Source of the DNA: Microbacteriaceae bacterium VKM Ac-2855
GTDB taxonomy: Bacteria; Actinomycetota; Actinomycetes; Actinomycetales; Microbacteriaceae
Reading direction: 5' to 3'
NCBI GenBank assembly: GCA_013204985.1
Contig: JABMLG010000002.1
Span: forward strand, 744,001 to 808,000
Length of the DNA stretch: 64,000 nt
Part shown: positions 7,097 through 59,635 of the stretch, piece by piece
Position numbering within the stretch: the stretch's first letter is position 1
Layout of the letters: each line of letters opens with the position of its first letter
Translations under genes and position numbers: made by a program
The notes under the pieces: model-generated
What the model was told of the DNA's origin: nothing
The model's database searches: none
What the model saw: only the letters and a program-made list of their open reading frames with translations

Positions 7097-8059
7097 GTGC
7101 GCAGAAACCTCGCGATCCTCGCCGTCCTCGGCTCGACCCTCGCCCTCGCTGCCTGCACGGGCTCCACGTCGGAGACGGCCACGCCGACCCCGACTGCGCT
7201 GAGTTGTGCGAGCAGCGGAACCGCCTCCGACTCCGTCGAGAGCAGCGGCGACTTCGGCGCGAAGCCGATCACGATCTTCCCGTCGCCGCTCGAGGTCGAC
7301 ACGACGGAGGTGAGCGTGGCGAGCGAGGGGACGGGCGCGACCGTCGCCGAGGGTGACACCGTGCTGATGGACTACACGCTGTACAACGGCACGACCGGGG
7401 CCGAGTTCAACGCGAGCGGATACGCGGCCGGCGGCCACGCGGCGCTCGAGGTCGATGCCGAGCAGTACCTGGTGGGGCTCGTCAAGGCGGTGAACTGCGC
7501 GACCGTCGGTTCGCGCGTAGTAGCCGTGGTCCCTCCGGCGGATGCGTTCGGAGCCGAGGGCAACACCACCTACGGACTCGGCGCGACAGACTCGATCGTG
7601 ATGGTCATCGACGTCGAATCGATCATCCCGACGGCCGCGGACGGCGAGCCGCAGACGCCGGTCGACGGCTTGCCGACCGTTGTGCTCGACGACACTGGCG
7701 CCCCCACCGTGACGATCCCCGACACCGCGGCGCCCGCCGAGCTCCAGCTCGAGGTCTTGAAGAAGGGCGCCGGGGCGGCCGTCGTCGACGGCGACAGCCT
7801 GATCGTGCAGTACCAGGGCGTCAACTGGACCACGGGCGAGGTCTTCGACCAGAGCTGGGGCTCCGGTACACCCGCGTCGTTCGGAACCGGCGACGTCATC
7901 CAGGGCTTCTCGGAGGCGGTGGTGGGCCAGACCGTCGGCTCGCAGGTGCTGGTCGTGATCCCGCCGGACAAGGGCTATGGCACCAGCGGTCAGTCCAGCG
8001 CCGGCATCTCGGGCACGGACACCCTCGTCTTCGTGATCGACATCCTCGCGATCAACTGA
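7097..8059 (+). CDS. FKBP-type peptidyl-prolyl isomerase lipoprotein with two domains
   Basis: Extracytoplasmic prolyl cis-trans isomerase anchored as a lipoprotein; 320 residues. The GTG start is preceded by GGAAAGG. The signal peptide ends in a lipobox (LAAC, Cys20) followed by a Ser/Thr linker. Two FKBP domains follow, about residues 70-175 and 220-320. The C-terminal one keeps the hallmark pattern ([32 protein letters not shown]); the N-terminal one is more divergent ([16 protein letters not shown]) and may be non-catalytic. Likely role: folding of exported proteins. A long palindromic terminator follows before dxr. Confidence 0.87.
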
Positions 8060-8061
8060 CC

Positions 8062-8146
8062 CCGCCCTGCGAGGGACCCGCCCTGTGCGCGTCGGACCCG
8101 CGCAGGGCGGGTCCGACGCGCACAGAAGGGGTCCCTCGCAGGGCGG
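8062..8146 (+). terminator. Two-tier palindromic terminator (long copy of CTGCGAGGGACCC element)
   Basis: Outer arms of 18 bp (8062-8079 with 8129-8146) and inner arms of 18 bp (8083-8100 with 8108-8125) around a 7-nt loop form one hairpin of about 85 nt just after the FKBP stop. The same two-tier design recurs at 16653-16727. Confidence 0.75.
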
Positions 8147-13404: not shown

Positions 13405-13463
13405 GACCCAGCGACACGCGCGCAGCGCCGTGTCGCGAGTCCACCCACCCCGATGACGCCCGC

Positions 13464-13636
13464 GTCAAAGAAACGGCAACCCGGAGCCTGGTGCCTCCGC
13501 TGGGTGCGTCCGCGGTCAAAGAAACGGCAACCCGGTGCCTGTTGCGCCCGCCAGGCGCGCCCGCGTCAAAGAAACGGCAACCCGGTGCCTGTTGCGCCCG
13601 CCGGGTGCATCCGCGGTCAAAGAAACGGCAACCCGG
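13464..13636. repeat. Four 50/51-bp interspersed direct repeats
   Basis: TCAAAGAAACGGCAACCCGG (20 bp, each preceded by G) occurs without a mismatch starting at G13464, G13515, G13565 and G13616. The 30-bp linkers are GC-rich and related to each other (TGCCTGTTGCGCCCGCC in two of three). In copies 2 and 3 GCAAC can pair with GTTGC across the core edge. The alternating 50/51 period breaks any reading frame, so the array is non-coding. Similar linkers rule out CRISPR spacers. Confidence 0.85.
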
Positions 13637-13682
13637 CGCTGGCCGCGCGCCCCGCGCACACGTTCCTGTCACTCGGCGCGCG

Positions 13683-14878: not shown

Positions 14879-16645
14879 GTGGTTACCCGTCTGTCGAAGC
14901 TGTTCGTCCGCACCCTCCGAGAGGACCCGTCCGACGCCGAGGTGGCCAGCCACCGGCTCCTGGTGCGCGCGGGTTACATCCGTCGGCAGGCTCCGGGCGT
15001 CTTCGCCTGGCTGCCGCTGGGCCTGCGGGTGCGCCGCCGGATCGAGGCGATCATCCGCGAAGAGATGGACGGCATCGGAGCGCAGGAGGTGCACTTCCCG
15101 GCACTGCTGCCGCGCGAGCCCTACGAGCTCTCGGGGCGCTGGACCGAATACGGCGACGGTGTGTTCCGCCTGAAGGACCGCAAGGATGCCGACTACATGC
15201 TGGCGCCCACGCACGAAGAGTTCTTCACCCTGCTGGTGAAAGACCTCTACTCGTCCTACAAGGACCTCCCTCTTTCGATCTACCAGATCCAGGACAAGTA
15301 CCGCGATGAGGCGCGTCCGCGTGCCGGCCTGCTGCGCGGGCGCGAGTTCACCATGAAGGACGCCTACTCGTTCGACTACACGGATGCGGGTCTCGACGCC
15401 AGCTACCAGCTCCAGCGCGACGCGTACGAGAGGATCTTCGACCGCTTGGGCCTCGGCTACGTGATCGTGCAGGCCGACGCCGGCGCGATGGGGGGCTCGC
15501 GCTCGGAGGAGTTCCTGCACCCGACCGCGGTCGGCGAGGACACCTTCGTGCGCTCGGCCGGCGGGTACGCGGCCAACGTCGAGGCGTATCGCACGGCGGT
15601 TCCGGATGCGATCCCGCTTGAGGGCCTCTCCGCCGCGCGGATCTTCCCGTCTCCCAACACGCCGACGATCGCGACGCTCGTCGATCTCGCGAACGCGCAA
15701 CAGCCCCGAGACGACGGCCGGGACTGGACCGCTGCGGACACCTTGAAGAACGTCGTGCTGGCGTTGACCCATCTAGACGGTTCGCGCGAGCTCGTCGTGA
15801 TCGGCTTGCCCGGCGACCGCGATGTCGATCTCAAGCGCGTCGAGGTCGCCTTCGCTCCGGCCGAGGTCGAAGCGGCGACCGAGGCGGACTTCGCCAAGAA
15901 CCCCGGCCTCGTGAAGGGCTACATCGGGCCCTGGAGCGAGGACGGCGCCATCCTTGGTGAGACGTCCGCTACCGGCATCCGTTTCCTGCTCGACCCGCGC
16001 GTGGTCGACGGCACGCAGTGGATCACCGGCGCGAACGTCGCCGGGTACCACGTGCTCGACCTCACCGCGGGGCGCGACTTCGTCGCCGACGGCTTCGTCG
16101 AGGCGGCCGAGGTCCGTGCGGGCGATCCCGCCCCCGACGGCTCCGGGCCGATCGAAACCGCACGCGGTATGGAGATCGGCCACGTCTTCCAGCTCGGCCG
16201 CAAGTACGCGAACGTCCTCGGTCTCAAGGTGCTCGACGAGAACGGCAAACTCGTGACCGTCACGATGGGCTCCTACGGTATCGGGGTCACTCGCATCCTG
16301 GCGATCATCGCCGAGGCGAATCACGACGAGAAGGGCTTGATCTGGCCCGAGAACGTCGCACCGTTCGATGTGCACGTCATCGCGACGGGCAAGGACGCCG
16401 CCGCGCTCGAAGCCGCCGAGACCATCGCCGCAGCGCTGGAGACGGCGGGTAAGGACGTACTGCTGGACGACCGTCCGAAGGTCTCGCCGGGTGTGAAGTT
16501 CGGCGATGCGGAGCTGATCGGCGTACCGCAGATCGTGATCGCGGGCCGCGGCGCCGCCGAGGGCATCGTCGAGTTGTGGGACCGTCGCAGCGGCGAACGC
16601 ACTCAGGTACCCATCAACGAGGTCTCCGCCCGCCTCCTCGGCTGA
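14879..16645 (+). CDS. proS: Proline--tRNA ligase (bacterial type)
   Basis: Class II aminoacyl-tRNA synthetase charging tRNA-Pro; 588 residues, as usual for the bacterial form with an inserted editing domain. Motif 2 region [20 protein letters not shown], the insertion domain about residues 220-400, motif 3 [13 protein letters not shown], and the C-terminal anticodon-binding domain are all readable. Start at the GTG at 14879, 22 bp after ispG, with TAGACT 8 nt before it, so its own leaderless transcript is possible. A two-tier palindrome ends the unit at 16653-16727. Confidence 0.95.
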
Positions 16646-16652
16646 CCCCGTA

Positions 16653-16727
16653 CTGCGGGGGACCCCGCCTGTGCGCGTGGGACCCGCCCTGGGCGGGTCC
16701 GATGCGCACAGGAGGGGTCCCTCGCAG
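16653..16727 (+). terminator. Two-tier palindromic terminator (third copy of CTGCGAGGGACCC element)
   Basis: Outer arms 16653-16666 with 16714-16727 (one mismatch); inner arms built on CTGTGCGC.T.GGACCCGCCC with two mismatches. Same architecture and order of motifs as at 8062-8146; it lies 8 nt after the proS stop. Confidence 0.75.
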
Positions 16728-16740
16728 GAGGTTCGTCGGG

Positions 16741-25900: not shown

Positions 25901-26802
25901 CGACCCCCAGCGGCATCCTGCTCCTCGACAAGCCCGCCGGGATCACCAGCCACGACCTGGTCTCCCGAACGCGACGCCGAGCGAACACGCGCAAGGTCGG
26001 TCACGCGGGCACGCTGGACCCGATGGCGACCGGTCTGATGATCCTGGGCATCGGCAGCTCGACCCGACTTCTCACTTTCGTGGTGGGACTGGGCAAGACG
26101 TACGACGCCACCATCCGGCTCGGAGCCGCCACGGTCACCGACGACGCCGAGGGTGACGTCATCGAACTCGCGGATGCAGGGGCCCTCGCAGCGGTCACCG
26201 GCGAAGGCATCGCCGCCGGCATCGCGCGGCTGACCGGACCGATCCTGCAGATACCGAGCACCGTCAGTGCGATCAAGATCGACGGCAAACGCGCCTACGC
26301 GCGCGCCCGAGCGGGGGAGGAGGTCGTGCTCCCCGCCCGGCCCGTGACCATCAGTGCGTTCGACGTGCTCGAGCGCCGCGACGGTGACGGCTGGATCGAC
26401 CTCGACGTCCGCGTCGACTGCTCCTCCGGCAGCTACATCCGCGCCCTTGCACGCGACCTGGGCGCCGGCCTCGGTGTCGGCGGCCACCTGACCCGGCTCC
26501 GACGCACCTCCATCGGACCGTTCGCTGTGCAACTAGCCGGCGATATCGACGAGATCGAGGTGACGGATGCGCTGCTGCCCCCCGCCGACGTCGCGCGCGC
26601 CCTTTTCACCGTGGTGACACTCGACGCCTCCGACACCATCGATCTCGCCAACGGCAAGCGGGTTCCCGCGGCGGATGCTCCGAACGGCATCACGCTCGCC
26701 GCGATCGGCCCCGGCGACCGCCTGATCGGACTCGCCGAACGCCGTGGTGACACGCTCAAGACCGTCGTCAACTTCCCGACCGACGCAGAGGCCACACCGT
26801 GA
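25897..26802 (+). CDS. truB: tRNA pseudouridine(55) synthase
   Basis: Makes pseudouridine 55 in the T-loop of tRNAs; 301 residues. The N-terminal SGILLLDKPAGITSHD and the catalytic motif GHAGTLDPMATGLM (active Asp) are textbook, as are SAIKIDGKRAYARAR and GSYIRALARDLG. The C-terminal portion is the actinobacterial short PUA-like form. The ATG at 25897 overlaps the stop of a leaderless mini-ORF. Its stop overlaps the next membrane gene by 4 bp (GTGA). In this genome the link rbfA-truB is broken by five genes, while ribF follows 2.4 kb later. Confidence 0.95.
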   Translation: MTTPSGILLLDKPAGITSHDLVSRTRRRANTRKVGHAGTLDPMATGLMILGIGSSTRLLTFVVGLGKTYDATIRLGAATVTDDAEGDVIELADAGALAAVTGEGIAAGIARLTGPILQIPSTVSAIKIDGKRAYARARAGEEVVLPARPVTISAFDVLERRDGDGWIDLDVRVDCSSGSYIRALARDLGAGLGVGGHLTRLRRTSIGPFAVQLAGDIDEIEVTDALLPPADVARALFTVVTLDASDTIDLANGKRVPAADAPNGITLAAIGPGDRLIGLAERRGDTLKTVVNFPTDAEATP

Positions 26803-27167
26803 TCGACTGGTTCACGACCATCCAGATCAGCCTCGCCGTCATCGCCGGCCTGCTCTGCCTCATCCTCGGCCTCCTCGGCCGGCAACCATCCGACCTCACC
26901 GTCGGCGCCACCGCGATCGTCGAACTCCTGCTGATCGTACAACTCGGCGTCACGATCGTCTCGCCCACCGCCGGCAACGAACCGACAGGCAGCCTCCCCG
27001 AGTTCTACATCTACCTGATCTCCGCCCTCCTCCTGCCCCCAGCAGCCGGCTTCTGGGCCCTCATCGAGCGCACCCGCTGGAGCACCGTCATCCTCGGCGT
27101 CGTCTGCCTCGCCCTCGCCGTGATGCTCTACCGCATGAACCAGATCTGGAACGTGCAGTCCTTGTAG
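26799..27167 (+). CDS. Small four-helix membrane protein, unknown function
   Basis: 122 residues with four predicted membrane helices (about 7-28, 36-55, 68-88, 95-114) and almost no loops. The GTG at 26799 overlaps the truB stop (GTGA), so it is translationally coupled to truB. Actinobacterial truB-ribF neighbourhoods often carry such a small integral membrane gene, but I do not recognise the family. Role unknown. Downstream lie hairpin repeats. Confidence 0.75.
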   Translation: MIDWFTTIQISLAVIAGLLCLILGLLGRQPSDLTVGATAIVELLLIVQLGVTIVSPTAGNEPTGSLPEFYIYLISALLLPPAAGFWALIERTRWSTVILGVVCLALAVMLYRMNQIWNVQSL

Positions 27168-27180
27168 GCGGATCTCCTCG

Positions 27181-27299
27181 TTCCTCGTCGATCCGCGGCC
27201 GTCGGCTCGAGCGGGTGGGCGGGTTGTGTGGAGCCGATTGCGGCGCGCTGCAAAGAATCCGCTGAGACGCGGATTTTTGTCGCGGCGCTTCGCGCGACA
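27181..27299. repeat. Hairpin repeat family, copy A (full)
   Basis: Head (27181-27247: TCGTCGATCCGCGGC and GTCGGCTCGAGCGGGTGGGC) followed by two hairpins. Stem 1 is AATCCGC 27256-27262 with GCGGATT 27269-27275 around TGAGAC and may extend outward by A-T pairs. Stem 2 is TGTCGCG 27278-27284 with CGCGACA 27293-27299 and an 8-nt loop. T-tracts after stem 1 could also make it a terminator of the truB unit. Confidence 0.75.
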
Positions 27300-27332
27300 G
27301 GACGTGAGGCGTGGTGTCGGGTGGTGTTCTTG

Positions 27333-27399
27333 TTCCTCGTCGATCCGCGGCGGTCGGCTCGAGCGGGTGGGCGGGTTGTGTGGAGCCGGCTGCGGCGCG
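27333..27399. repeat. Hairpin repeat family, copy B (head only)
   Basis: 67 bp matching the head of copy A with three mismatches, 152 bp downstream. The hairpin part is missing; sequence after 27399 leads to the end of the convergent secreted-protein gene. Confidence 0.75.
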
Positions 27400-27443
27400 T
27401 CGTGGAGGACACGGGCCTCCTACGACCTGAGCGATACCTCGGC

Positions 27444-28295
27444 TCAGGCTGGAACCGTGACCGTGGCTGCAGCGGACTTCGTGCCGGCGGGGGAGGTCGA
27501 GGTGATCTCGACGATGTAGTCACCGGGTTGGAACGGAGCAGGTTGGGTGAACGTGCCGCTGAAGTACCCGGGATTGTCAACGGCGGCGAACAAGGCGTCG
27601 GTCAACTGTGAAGTCTCCAGGACGGCATCATCACTCACGCGGGTGATGGTGTAACTCCACGGAACGTTGAACGAGCGTGTCGGGTCCGAGCCGAGATAGT
27701 CGGCGGACGCGGTCCAGGCGATGTTCTCCATCCATGGGCCGTTCGCAGCGGAATAGCTCGCCTGCACGCCGACGCCGATCTCATCGATCGATGATGCGGG
27801 GGCCACGGTTCGCGGCCGGAAGCGGAACTCTCGCCACGCTTCCCGAGACTGATTCCCCGAGATCACAGCAATGACGAGCTGGTAGTAGCCGCCGGGGATG
27901 CTGTCGGTATCGACGGTTCCGCCACCGACCCAGTGCGCGTCCTTCGTCAGCTGTTCGTCGCCCGATGCCACCAGGATCGGCGCGATGCTGGTGTCGTGCT
28001 GATTCACGAGCTGAACACTCCACGAGAACGATGCGATCGCGGGATCGTTCGGGCCATAATACACGTATTCGATGCTCGTTGTGTAGGTCAGCAAACCCTC
28101 GGTCTCATCGGACAGAGAGCCCGACGGGGCGCGGACAACGAAATTGGACGCACCCGACACGTTCGTCGAGGCGGCTGCAGATGGTGCAACGGCGATGATC
28201 GCGACGACGGGCAGACTCCAAGCGCCGCCACGGACCACAGTCCGTCGTGTGGGCGAACTGTGCGCGGGTGAGGGTGTGCAAGATGAAATGAGCAT
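27444..28295 (-). CDS. Tat-type secreted protein of unknown function
   Basis: 283 residues. The N-terminus carries a twin-arginine-like signal (PTRRTVVRGGAWSLPVVAIIAVAPSAAAS), with cleavage likely after the AAA. The mature part is rich in beta-type sequence, Ser and Thr, with a terminal Ig-like stretch (FQPGDYIVEITSTSPAGTKSAAATVTV). Probably an exported or cell-wall-exposed protein. A TAGAGT box 6 nt before the ATG supports the start. The same signal design occurs at 56786-57427. Codon use looks less GC-rich than neighbours, and hairpin repeats flank it on both sides, so recent insertion is possible. Confidence 0.68.
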   Translation of the reverse strand: MLISSCTPSPAHSSPTRRTVVRGGAWSLPVVAIIAVAPSAAASTNVSGASNFVVRAPSGSLSDETEGLLTYTTSIEYVYYGPNDPAIASFSWSVQLVNQHDTSIAPILVASGDEQLTKDAHWVGGGTVDTDSIPGGYYQLVIAVISGNQSREAWREFRFRPRTVAPASSIDEIGVGVQASYSAANGPWMENIAWTASADYLGSDPTRSFNVPWSYTITRVSDDAVLETSQLTDALFAAVDNPGYFSGTFTQPAPFQPGDYIVEITSTSPAGTKSAAATVTVPA

Positions 28296-28307
28296 AAATC
28301 AACTCTA
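28296..28307 (-). promoter_or_regulatory. -10 box of the secreted-protein gene (leaderless start)
   Basis: TAGAGT on the minus strand (28302-28307), 6 nt before the ATG at 28295. Confidence 0.5.
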
Positions 28308-28316
28308 CATTCGGTT

Positions 28317-28380
28317 GTTGCGGCGCCCTGCGAAGCTCCACTGGCGACGCGGAGTTCGCTCGCGGCCCATGACGCGAGCG
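28317..28380. repeat. Hairpin repeat family, copy E
   Basis: Stem 1 is CGAA-g-CTCC-a-C (28331-28341, one bulge, one mismatch) with GCGGAGTTCG (28349-28358) around TGGCGAC. Stem 2 is CGCTCGCG 28357-28364 with CGCGAGCG 28373-28380, perfect, with an 8-nt loop. Order and loop sizes match copy A; the stem sequences differ. Confidence 0.65.
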
Positions 28381-28463
28381 GCAGAGGGGAGGCGGCGACG
28401 CAAACTCGGCTGAGAGCGGTGCACAGCCCCGATGGGCGCTGACGGAAGCTCTCCGCCGAGATT

Positions 28464-28517
28464 GTGTCGCCGTCGAGTAACCAGGCCCACCTGGTTGCGG
28501 CGCTGGGCGCGCGACAC
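28464..28517. repeat. Hairpin repeat family, divergent copy F
   Basis: AACCAGG 28479-28485 pairs with CCTGGTT 28490-28496 (loop CCCA), enclosed by GTGTCGC 28464-28470 with GCGACAC 28511-28517. GCGGCGCT...GCGCGCGACA after the inner stem resembles the stem-2 region of copy A. Membership is less certain than for the other copies. Confidence 0.45.
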
Positions 28518-28708
28518 GGTGTGGCAGTTCCTCCTTCGGCGAGGAAGGATCATGCGGGCGCGGAGAGGAAGTCGGGTTTTCTCCTGATTCGGTCAGGATG
28601 ACCGTGCCCGAGGTCGACAGGCTCGAACTGGGCGGTCGCTACAGGCGGGTCGACAGGAATGAGCGCACGGACGCGGGGAGGGTGGGGAACGTCTAGCATT
28701 GACGAGCG

Positions 28709-29194
28709 ATGTCAGAACAGCAGATCGGCGCCCGCAGCAGCAGCGCTCAGCGCGACCCACGCCGCCCGAACCGCGGCACCGGAGTCCTCCGTCTCCTCGT
28801 CGTCGTCTACGGGATCCTCGCGCTCGCCGCGACCGGACGGTCCGTCTTCCAGATCATCGACCGCTTCGACGAAGCTCCGATCGCCTTCAGCCTCTCGGCG
28901 CTCTCCGCCGTGGTGTACATCATCGCGACCATCGCCCTGATCGCACCCGGTCGCACCTGGAACCGGATCGCATGGATCACGATCACCTTCGAGCTCGTGG
29001 GCGTCATCGTGATCGGCGCGATCAGCGTGCTGGCACCGTCGCTCCTCGGGCTCAGCTCCATCGACCCGTTCGGTCGCCAAGCGACGGTGTGGTCGGTATT
29101 CGGAGCCGGCTACCTCTGCATCCCCCTGATCCTCCCGATCCTCGGACTCTGGTCGCTGCGCAGCCGTCGCGTGCGCGAAACGGTCGGCTCATGA
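28709..29194 (+). CDS. Four-helix membrane protein, unknown function
   Basis: 161 residues: a charged N-terminal tail of about 25 residues, then four predicted membrane helices (about 27-45, 58-80, 88-108, 125-145) and a short basic end. The family is not recognised. The stop overlaps the ribF start by 4 bp (ATGA), so it is expressed with ribF. TAGCAT lies 9 nt before the ATG and no Shine-Dalgarno sequence is seen. Possibly a transporter accessory or envelope protein; there is no direct evidence. Confidence 0.75.
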   Translation: MSEQQIGARSSSAQRDPRRPNRGTGVLRLLVVVYGILALAATGRSVFQIIDRFDEAPIAFSLSALSAVVYIIATIALIAPGRTWNRIAWITITFELVGVIVIGAISVLAPSLLGLSSIDPFGRQATVWSVFGAGYLCIPLILPILGLWSLRSRRVRETVGS

Positions 29195-30117
29195 GGATCG
29201 AAACCGATCCGGCGGCAGCCCGCGGGATCGGGCCCTCCGCGGTCACGATCGGGAAATTCGACGGGGTTCACTCGGGCCACCGAGCGGTGATCGGCGAACT
29301 CCTCAGCGAGGCGCACCGCCGAGAGCTCGCCGCCGTCGTCGTGACCTTCGACCGCAACCCGCTCAGCGTGATCGCGCCCGAATACACGCCGATCCCGCTC
29401 GTCAGCAACGACCAGAAACTCGCACTGCTGGCCGGGACTGGTGTCGACGCGACCCTGATGCTCGCCTTCGACGAGACGCTCATGCGGCTGAGCCCGGAAG
29501 AGTTCGTTCGACGCGTGCTCGTCGACGCGTTGCAGGCTCGGATCGTGCTCGTCGGCGGCGACTTCCGTTTCGGTGCTCGCGGCGCCGGCGACGTCGCCCG
29601 CCTCACCGAACTCGGCGCGCAGTTCGGTTTCGAGGTGCGGATCATCGATGATGTGCGACCCGAAGACGGTCGCCGCGTCTCCTCCACGTGGATCCGCGAG
29701 TTGCTCGATGAAGGCGACGTCGAGCACGCCGGTCGCCTTCTCGGCCACGAACCCGTCGTGCGCGGCATGGTGGTGCACGGTGCGAAGCGCGGGCGTGAGC
29801 TCGGCTTCCCCACTGCCAATCTTTCGCCCGCATCGCAGGGCCTCATCCCCGCGGACGGCGTGTACGCCGGCCGGCTCACGGTCGGCGACCGCACCTACAT
29901 GGCCGCCATCTCGGTCGGCAACAACCCGACCTTCGAGGGTGTTCCGCTCAAGCAGGTCGAGGCCTACGTACTCGATGAAACGCTCGACCTCTACGACAAG
30001 ATCGTCGACGTCACCTTCGTCGCGCGCATCCGCGGCATGGTCGCGTTCACCGGCATCGAGCCGCTGATCGTGCAGATGAACGACGACGTCGAACGAGCCC
30101 GAATGCTGCTGCGCTGA
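29191..30117 (+). CDS. ribF: Bifunctional riboflavin kinase/FAD synthetase
   Basis: Makes FMN and then FAD from riboflavin; 308 residues. The N-terminal nucleotidyltransferase domain has TIGKFDGVHSGH (HxGH-like) and RVSSTWIRELL. The C-terminal flavokinase domain has GRELGFPTANL and a VGNNPTF-type segment. The ATG at 29191 overlaps the upstream membrane-protein stop (ATGA). In actinobacteria truB-ribF order is conserved; here two small membrane genes and a secreted-protein gene separate them. A repeat array follows. Confidence 0.95.
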   Translation: MRIETDPAAARGIGPSAVTIGKFDGVHSGHRAVIGELLSEAHRRELAAVVVTFDRNPLSVIAPEYTPIPLVSNDQKLALLAGTGVDATLMLAFDETLMRLSPEEFVRRVLVDALQARIVLVGGDFRFGARGAGDVARLTELGAQFGFEVRIIDDVRPEDGRRVSSTWIRELLDEGDVEHAGRLLGHEPVVRGMVVHGAKRGRELGFPTANLSPASQGLIPADGVYAGRLTVGDRTYMAAISVGNNPTFEGVPLKQVEAYVLDETLDLYDKIVDVTFVARIRGMVAFTGIEPLIVQMNDDVERARMLLR

Positions 30118-30144
30118 GCCGATCGGTCGATCTCCTCGTGCCTC

Positions 30145-30275
30145 GTCGATCGACGGCGGTCGGCTCGGGTGCGGTGGCGGATTCGAAGAGCCGGTTGGGT
30201 TCGCGTACGACGAAATGCTGAGGACGCATTTCGCCGGTTACGCTCGCGCGGAAGCGGTTGCGTTAACGAGGTCGT
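30145..30275. repeat. Hairpin repeat family, copy C (131-bp unit)
   Basis: Head GTCGATCGACGGCGGTCGGC, then stem 1 CGAAATGC 30211-30218 with GCATTTCG 30226-30233, perfect 8 bp around TGAGGAC. The second hairpin region (GGTTACGCTCGCGCGG) is less regular. Almost identical to copy D. Confidence 0.8.
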
Positions 30276-30421
30276 GTCGATCGACGGCGGTCGGCTCGGG
30301 TGCGGTGGCGGATTCGAAGAGCCGGTTGCGTTCGCGTACGACGAAATGCTGAGGACGCATTTCGCCGGTTACGCTCGCGCGGAGGCGGTCGTTTTCACGA
30401 GGTGGTGTCGGTCGACGGCTC
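30276..30421. repeat. Hairpin repeat family, copy D plus start of a third unit
   Basis: Starts exactly 131 bp after copy C and differs from it at only a handful of bases. Stem 1 is at 30342-30364. From 30407 a third unit begins (GTCGGTCGACGGCT) and breaks off. Confidence 0.8.
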
Positions 30422-30476
30422 GCTACCACCCCGCCCGGGTCGGCGCCAGCCACCGCGAACGGTCAGGGCGTCCGCG

Positions 30477-30488
30477 TAGCGTGAGGGC
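30477..30488 (+). promoter_or_regulatory. -10 box of the SDR-DUF2867 gene (leaderless start)
   Basis: TAGCGT (30477-30482), 6 nt, then ATG at 30489. Confidence 0.45.
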
Positions 30489-59283: not shown

Positions 59284-59312
59284 TTGACGAGCGCGGATGC
59301 TTGTGACATACT
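59284..59312 (+). promoter_or_regulatory. Promoter of the first tRNA-Glu gene
   Basis: -35 TTGACG (59284-59289), a 17-bp spacer and -10 CATACT (59307-59312), 17 nt before the mature 5' end. Confidence 0.75.
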
Positions 59313-59329
59313 CTTCGAGTTGCAAAAAC

Positions 59330-59402
59330 GGCCCCATCGTTTAGCGGCCTAGGACGTCGCCCTCTCACGGCGGTAACGCGGGTTCAAATCCCGCTGGGGT
59401 CA
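59330..59402 (+). tRNA. tRNA-Glu(CTC), first copy
   Basis: 73 nt, with CCA encoded at 59403-59405. The acceptor stem GGCCCCA/TGGGGTC (with one G-T pair), anticodon loop CTCTCAC with anticodon CTC, and T-arm GCGGG TTCAAAT CCCGC fold normally. It differs from the second copy only at the T-loop position (A instead of G). Followed by a clear terminator hairpin. Confidence 0.95.
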
Positions 59403-59412
59403 CCACATGCAC

Positions 59413-59452
59413 AAGCCCCGTCTCCCTGTTCACCAGGGCGGCGGGGCTTTCT
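59413..59452 (+). terminator. Terminator after the first tRNA-Glu gene
   Basis: AAGCCCCG (59413-59420) pairs with CGGGGCTT (59442-59449), inner CCCTG/CAGGG, followed by TTCTC. Confidence 0.85.
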
Positions 59453-59556
59453 CATTCGCAGCCTTCCGCGCGCGGAGCGACGGTCGGGCCGGCAGCGGAT
59501 CGTCGACGGTGTCCGGGCTCGCGCCGAGTGTGGCATACTCGTCGGGTTGCGAAAAC

Positions 59557-59629
59557 GGCCCCATCGTTTAGCGGCCTAGGACGTCGCCCTCTCACGGCGG
59601 TAACGCGGGTTCGAATCCCGCTGGGGTCA
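59557..59629 (+). tRNA. tRNA-Glu(CTC), second copy
   Basis: 73 nt, 227 bp downstream of the first copy, with CCA at 59630-59632. Same anticodon CTC; T-loop TTCGAAT is the canonical form. The -10 CATACT (59534-59539) is shared with the first copy, but no good -35 is seen, so this promoter may be weaker. Confidence 0.95.
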
Positions 59630-59635
59630 CCATCA

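Follow-up and report, generated by a model that had tools for sequence, protein, structure and literature searches.

The subject of this work is a family of dispersed hairpin repeats, several copies of which lie between positions 27167 and 30406 of a 64,000-nucleotide (nt) stretch from the Actinobacterium VKM Ac-2855, a member of Microbacteriaceae (the window; its genome, G000, measures 4.7 Mb, and the stretch covers 744001-808000 of contig 12). Copies are found mostly right behind the stop codons of genes on the same strand, and each intact copy begins with a hairpin (P1) whose loop is nearly constant, while its stem differs from copy to copy and mostly stays paired. Gene-end hairpin repeats that resemble repetitive extragenic palindromic (REP) sequences are often taken as inert litter. 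Among such dispersed repeats, the combination of a constant-loop, rewritten-stem design with direct evidence of maintenance is unusual, and the family points to a previously undescribed gene-end signal. We tentatively favour the interpretation that it is a cis-acting RNA hairpin at the 3' ends of genes, read by a trans-acting factor. No description of the family was found among the titles listed for open papers in searches by the loop sequence, for REP sequences and their associated transposases in Actinobacteria and for repeats of Rathayibacter and Microbacteriaceae; subscription papers were largely outside these searches.

From the gene end in the 5' to 3' direction, the element consists of a gap of 0-10 nt, P1, the sequence GGCGGTCGGC followed by ~25 variable nt, a GAGCC or GAGCG motif, and a further hairpin (P3). 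In P1, a stem of 7-8 bp whose sequence varies encloses a near-constant, pyrimidine-rich loop, TCCTCGTTCCTCGTC (TCCTCG-N3-CTCGTC), 15-17 nt in length, so the conserved sequence sits in the loop. P3 starts about 55-65 nt after P1, with a stem of 8-10 bp and a loop that is usually TGNNAC. Type A copies carry an extra GC-rich hairpin at the tail, and a unit spans about 123-142 nt with two or three hairpins. An additional helix, P2 (GCGGTCGGCT/AGCCGGTTGC), was considered and is not claimed, because its 3' side often reads GAGCG... while the 5' side is constant, and the pairing is lost. Likewise, a structure proposed by RNAalifold, in which the end of the loop pairs with GGTCGGC and P1 is not formed, was not used, as the underlying MAFFT alignment of full copies misplaces gaps in P1 and P3.

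Pairing in the stems and placement behind gene ends

The pairing of P1 was evaluated in 26 distinct heads (out of 28, with 11 tandem or degenerate heads excluded beforehand) by permutation controls that leave the relatedness of copies in place. Altogether 84.6% of 208 cells are paired, as opposed to 54.7% (standard deviation (sd) 2.7) in shuffles; the covariation score is 0.787 against 0.220 (0/500 shuffles reach the observed value), cells with both sides changed number 65 against 21.5, and slid versions of the stem are 26-48% paired. A wider count, over 32 heads including degenerate ones, gave 158 strict pairs out of 224, compared with 85.0 in 10,000 shuffles (sd 6.5, maximum 114). For P3, we used 21 full copies (25 identified by the head and the end motif, minus 4 near-duplicates), whose 15 distinct arm pairs exhibit 112 paired cells out of 120 versus 84.5 (sd 4.6, maximum 101) in 10,000 re-pairings, the search pattern fixing the two innermost pairs in the observed and re-paired sets alike. 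The proposal of an earlier note on this DNA, that stems differ while pairing is kept by selection for structure, is thus supported, with pairing well above chance. The head block, which that note had missed both as a structure and in its position after stop codons, turns out to be a hairpin of its own, namely P1, whereas its rule that stem 1 (our P3) always begins with AA and ends with TT does not extend to the genome, where the P3 stem is more variable. In counts that are small and partly non-independent, G-U cells outnumber A-C cells 6:1 where P1 stems are well formed, 17:9 over the whole set of P1 stems, and 14:4 in P3; an excess of this kind is expected where the sense strand folds.

The exact 15-mer loop, with one base left free, occurs 29 times in the VKM Ac-2855 genome, each time at a head recognized by our head model R1, and 0 times in the reversed sequence. 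In 24 of these 29 heads, the start of the stem falls between -3 and +9 nt relative to the stop codon that closes a frame of 130 or more codons on the same strand, while the same test applied to random positions succeeded in 269/10,271 cases (2.6%) for the same strand and in 266/11,600 for the opposite strand. The nominal tail of the element coincides with the end of an opposite-strand frame in 2/29 cases. The other five heads comprise two later copies of tandem arrays, two heads without a clear frame (C1:244222 and C12:36008), and one case at a gene for tRNA-Thr.

According to NCBIfam and Pfam searches, the genes upstream of the heads include argG, def, exaC, mmsA, dapF, pfk, glpX, purH, ppc, ribF, murB, ispE, trkA, pyk, rpsT, and several regulators, as well as relatives of mannose-1-phosphate guanylyltransferase and of E2 (the names aspartate aminotransferase and E2 correspond to matches under the curated cut-offs). 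Descriptively, most of the named genes are housekeeping genes.

The excess of G-U over A-C, together with the orientation behind genes, favours the sense strand and is among the reasons why we put the RNA interpretation first. It was weighed against a landmark at the DNA level, i.e. a cruciform or a site for gyrase or a nucleoid protein at gene ends. Bacterial interspersed mosaic elements (BIMEs) have a gyrase-binding role, and the placement behind housekeeping genes, which are probably well expressed, as well as behind terminator-like hairpins (see below), would agree with such a site. However, a protein that binds the loop in duplex DNA would need no compensated stems, and the predominance of G-U over A-C on one strand would be left unexplained; we therefore consider a landmark of this kind improbable.

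Orthologous sites and distribution

At orthologous sites, selection becomes directly visible: the loop stays, the stem letters go, and the pairing mostly stays. Heads are present at seven sites in both G000 and its sister species G383. The loop letters at these sites are identical in 102/105 positions, whereas the stem letters agree in 37/98 only (23/84 without the pair L025/L109, whose stems are identical), and yet 84/98 stem positions are paired within the genomes. Fourfold codon sites of the upstream genes, counted for five of the seven sites, agree in 349/617 positions; the pairs L025/L109 and L178/L146 were misframed by the ORF finder and therefore excluded from this count, but included in those of loops and stems. 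Thus, the loop is more conserved than fourfold sites (p=2e-19).

Other sites reach further across the genus. The element behind pyk is found in 11/15 genus genomes, and near relatives exhibit compensated changes in its stem (GGA/TCC vs GGG/CCC and GGT/ACC vs GGG/CCC), in addition to GTT/ATC, with one mismatch, vs GTC/GAC. The element behind exaC is present in 8/9 genomes that have an exaC match at E<=1e-150. In other species, the loop of the pyk and exaC elements has the form TCCTCG-N3-CTCGTC or TCCTCG-C-N3-G-CTCGTC, and the longer variant is carried by 4 of the 8 genomes with the exaC element. On the other hand, the site behind ribF is filled only in G000 and G383 and empty in the other 13 of the 15 genus genomes. 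The family is thus old at some sites and expanded more recently at others; some sites have been kept over long evolutionary times, with their stems compensated. We also considered TGA as a part of the element, which is unsupported, as TGAGT is likewise present after pyk and exaC where these genes lack the element. At the 3' end of exaC in G383 (L201), where other species have the element, and also in L131 and L158, there is a different hairpin repeat, GTTGTCACTCCGTCCC...GGGACGGAGTGACAAC.

The genome search confirmed that further copies exist: two queries gave 53 and 55 matches at E<=1 in the VKM Ac-2855 genome, and model R1 identified 40 heads at E<=1, of which 36 have E<0.001. Across the family, at least 33/398 genomes contain a match at E<=0.01, including 8/10 genus members sampled; many single matches elsewhere are weak, and as 18 candidates were scored per genome, the counts are lower bounds. 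Deeper scoring revealed 30 heads in G383 and between 2 and 9 in each of six further members of the genus; G221 has 1 weak head and G263 has 0. When the contigs of named genomes were scanned for exact occurrences of the head signature, 18 stretches contained it, from Rathayibacter spp., from VKM Ac-2854, and from one Actinomycetota genome assembled from a metagenome. The clusters seen are arranged head-to-tail in tandem (C1:670, C1:34, C3:64, C25:23, C4:49, and others), with a single inverted pair, C24:206999 and 207321, after two convergent genes. In second units of tandem arrays, the 5' arm of P1 is often unpaired, but it is kept in some (C1:670, L121).

Two further arrangements were noted. 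Locus L147 of G383 contains three loops in series (GGCACAG-loop-CTGTGTC..., then GGCCTTTT-loop twice, with an AAAAGGC end), as if the head had expanded step by step. In genus g63 (L116, L117, L128, L129, L161-L167), the loop motif, as the 17-mer CTCCTCGTTCCTCGTCG, occurs within the loop of another kind of hairpin repeat, whose own stem varies.

RNA element, mobile DNA or terminator

A constant loop on an exchangeable stem follows the logic of a hairpin that presents a single-stranded loop to a factor, and the compensated stems disfavour a site read in duplex DNA, which needs none. We propose that the element is transcribed as the 3' untranslated region of the upstream gene and that the trans-acting factor, either a protein or an RNA, reads the P1 loop; P1 and P3 together could then set the stability of the 3' end or dampen translation, as is reported in E. 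coli for REP hairpins no more than 15 nt from a stop codon. The copies would first have spread and afterwards been retained for this role. A bolder version, which we regard as doubtful, has two parts: that one RNA-binding factor reads the P1 loop behind dozens of housekeeping genes, which would make the family a portable post-transcriptional regulon, and that stem sequences change at a higher rate than synonymous sites, through diversifying selection or hairpin-templated replacement of arms, with the pairing kept and each stem specific to its locus. Anti-Shine-Dalgarno action of the loop, in which UCCUC appears two times, is a conjecture from inspecting the sequence. Whichever factor may be involved, the constant loop is a ready bait for finding it.

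Several observations speak against the RNA interpretation. Dispersal and tandem copies demand a mechanism of spreading, which it lacks. At the orthologous sites, divergence is greater in the stem letters than at fourfold positions (Fisher p=0.0007), which is not predicted by plain drift under a pairing constraint. P1 is imperfect, with two central pairs open in 8/26 distinct heads and the outermost pair in 13/26, and although all 8/8 P1 pairs change on both sides, 81/500 shuffles equal that. The G-U excess in P3 is non-independent, as 13/14 cases are G-T, many from one type A pair, in a list of copies picked for at least 6/8 pairs. The absence of the element from exaC in G383 and from pyk in G000 indicates that it is dispensable there. 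A long terminator-like hairpin precedes the element in 10/11 pyk copies and at the seven rpsT loci seen, which are in other genomes of the genus, so that little of it may be transcribed at these genes. Finally, one head is located 14 nt behind a tRNA-Thr gene, hence the stop codon is not the sole cue. Taken together, the positions after terminator-like hairpins and after a tRNA weaken a purely translational role and keep alive the possibility of a mobile element that acts as single-stranded DNA.

Such an element would be a REP-like, non-autonomous piece of mobile DNA, whose hairpin, folded in single-stranded DNA, presents the loop to a transposase or recombinase; gene ends would then reflect a target preference, and persistence would be passive. 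Dispersed copies, tandem arrays and headless fragments are what one would expect of it, as is the ribF site, filled in two genomes and empty in 13; stop codons, terminator-like hairpins and the tRNA fit a structural target better than a translational role, and the orientation bias would suit directed insertion. Nonetheless, passive copies would lose the conservation of the loop above fourfold sites, and some sites are maintained across the genus. A search for the Y1 transposase domain (PF01797), characteristic of the REP-associated tyrosine transposases (RAYTs), yielded no match in the VKM Ac-2855 genome (0/1) or in the genus genomes (0/15), with 5/14 control genomes positive; other transposase and recombinase families were not searched. 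Mobilization of the RAYT/IS200 kind was accordingly rejected, and the earlier remark that no RAYT is visible in the window holds for the 15 genus genomes as well. Overall, we view mobile DNA as the main rival, possible though less probable than an RNA element. With loop, stem and pairing open to comparison at orthologous sites, the question whether gene-end hairpins are parasites or regulators becomes testable at single sites, in a genus without a detected RAYT.

The likeness to REP/BIME elements suggested before is real as regards the layout, in that the copies are dispersed, form hairpins, and stand 3' of genes near stop codons, but it does not amount to membership. While the extragenic palindromic copies are many and dispersed (the 36 heads at E<0.001), neighbours are not mostly inverted, given the tandem clusters and the one inverted pair described above. 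Across 57 heads, no fixed tetranucleotide such as GTAG or CGTC stands 5' of the stem; CGTC occurs within the P1 loop, and GTAG in some copies (e.g. copy A). With neither a RAYT nor the tag, we do not call the family REP. As described in PMC3733652, REP/BIME elements with RAYTs are likewise short dispersed hairpins, mostly downstream of coding sequences, several per locus, suspected to be mobile and plausibly acting as RNA, but they have mostly short loops, unlike the long conserved loop, variable stem, and lack of a GTAG/CGTC tag beside the stem found here; according to the same source, repeats of the CGTC superfamily are also without a dedicated transposase. REPs no more than 15 nt from a stop codon have been reported to stall ribosomes in E. 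coli (ref. 17 as cited in PMC12306157). The latter source thus offers another case of a hairpin right behind the stop codon of many genes; it predicts 446/4,072 REPs within 15 nt of a stop, to be set beside our 24/29 exact-loop heads. The pneumococcal BOX, RUP and SPRITE repeats resemble the family in being modular and dispersed, with predicted RNA structure and sometimes co-transcribed as 3' extensions; BOX also forms 5' extensions, and the passages of PMC3049150 consulted describe no constant-loop, variable-stem hairpin.

The position at gene ends could also be that of a terminator or back-up terminator, with P3, and perhaps P1, bringing the upstream gene's transcription to an end or insulating it. 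In type A, P3 is a GC stem, A-rich/T-rich, with TTTTTG at its end, and it resembles a terminator stem with a T run; no further terminator would fit between the stop and heads that start 0-9 nt after it. Against this, a consensus scan detected no terminator-like site at copies A, C and D, the type B P3 is devoid of a T run, the terminator-like hairpin that precedes the element at pyk and rpsT is the stronger one, and termination needs no constant 15-nt loop; a terminator is in our opinion unlikely. The previous conclusion that the copies are not simply terminators is still likely, but the placement argument given for it fails, because the copy in a divergent gap (fragment E, below) has no head and says little about the placement of intact elements.

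Retrons were considered as well. One match to a reverse transcriptase (RT) per genome was found in 12/15 genus genomes: in G000 (L225:958-2349, contig 20) and in 11 others; the two that were tested belong to the retron class (PADLOC RT_other/RT_outgroup). The elements would then be copies, scattered over the genome, of the RT's noncoding RNA, in line with G263 (no head) and G221 (one weak head) being also without an RT. Nannocystis has chromosomal repeats that resemble retron multicopy single-stranded DNA, again hairpin repeats that are dispersed in a genome encoding a retron RT; unlike these, the element cores here have no convincing sequence link to the RT loci. The best match of 65 element cores to 11 RT loci, at 39.2 bits (E 2e-5), compares with 35.6 bits for the reversed control, and both matches are short; the strong matches belong to repeats of other kinds, next to or within truncated elements. 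Moreover, G401 has the pyk element and no detected RT, while G402 has an RT and no pyk element. We regard a retron origin as highly improbable. A conserved, structured-looking region is present upstream of the RT and, judged by eye, runs in the opposite orientation in G000 and G383.

Copies in the window and other repeats

Of the five related copies or fragments that the earlier note had listed within 3.2 kb, A, C, D and fragment E are genuine, B is a copy too, and F is not supported. Copy A (27167-27299, + strand, as are all those below) begins within the TAG stop codon (27165..27167) of the ORF 26799-27167, the final base of which is base 1 of the P1 stem. Its P1 (27167..27197) has the stem GGCGGAT/ATCCGC plus a closing C-G pair, with the loop TCCTCGTTCCTCGTC at 27175-27189; it is followed by a type A P3 (27250..27279; AAAGAATCCGC TGAGAC GCGGATTTTT), i.e. 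stem 1 of the earlier note, and by the tail hairpin of type A copies (27278..27299), its stem 2. Copy B, a second unit (27326..about 27400), has a head without a paired 5' arm and an incomplete body.

Fragment E (28316..28392) is a headless type A body, which scores 45.5 bits against type A bodies, compared with a maximum of 32.8 in 100 shuffles of two-base blocks; no match to head model R1 was found there. The best score of F, 31.0 bits, is within the range of 100 shuffles and thus indistinguishable from chance.

Copy C follows ribF (29191-30117, TGA stop codon at 30115..30117), with the stop 7 nt upstream of P1 (30125..30155; stem GGTCGAT/ATCGAC, loop TCCTCGTGCCTCGTC), and has a type B P3 (30211..30233; CGAAATGC TGAGGAC GCATTTCG). 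Copy D (30276..30406) is its tandem duplicate, 95% identical to 30145-30275, with a unit of 131 nt, no 5' arm of P1, and P3 at 30342-30364. Rfam covariance models gave 0 matches at E<=1 in window positions 27100-30480.

Other repeats accompany the family. Tandem units of ~50 nt that carry GTCAAAGAAACGGCAACCC are located at 13457-13653 of the window and in L019, L044 and L055, and the same motif forms inverted pairs at other intergenic places, some of them beside heads. An 87-nt palindromic repeat, TGCGAGGGACCC...GGGTCCCTCGCA, is present at 8056-8142 and 16642-16728 and in L046, L060 and L226; it also follows two truncated heads and is located immediately 5' of the retron-type RT gene. Finally, positions 59302-59632 contain a 104-nt direct repeat, 95% identical, that holds two tRNA genes.

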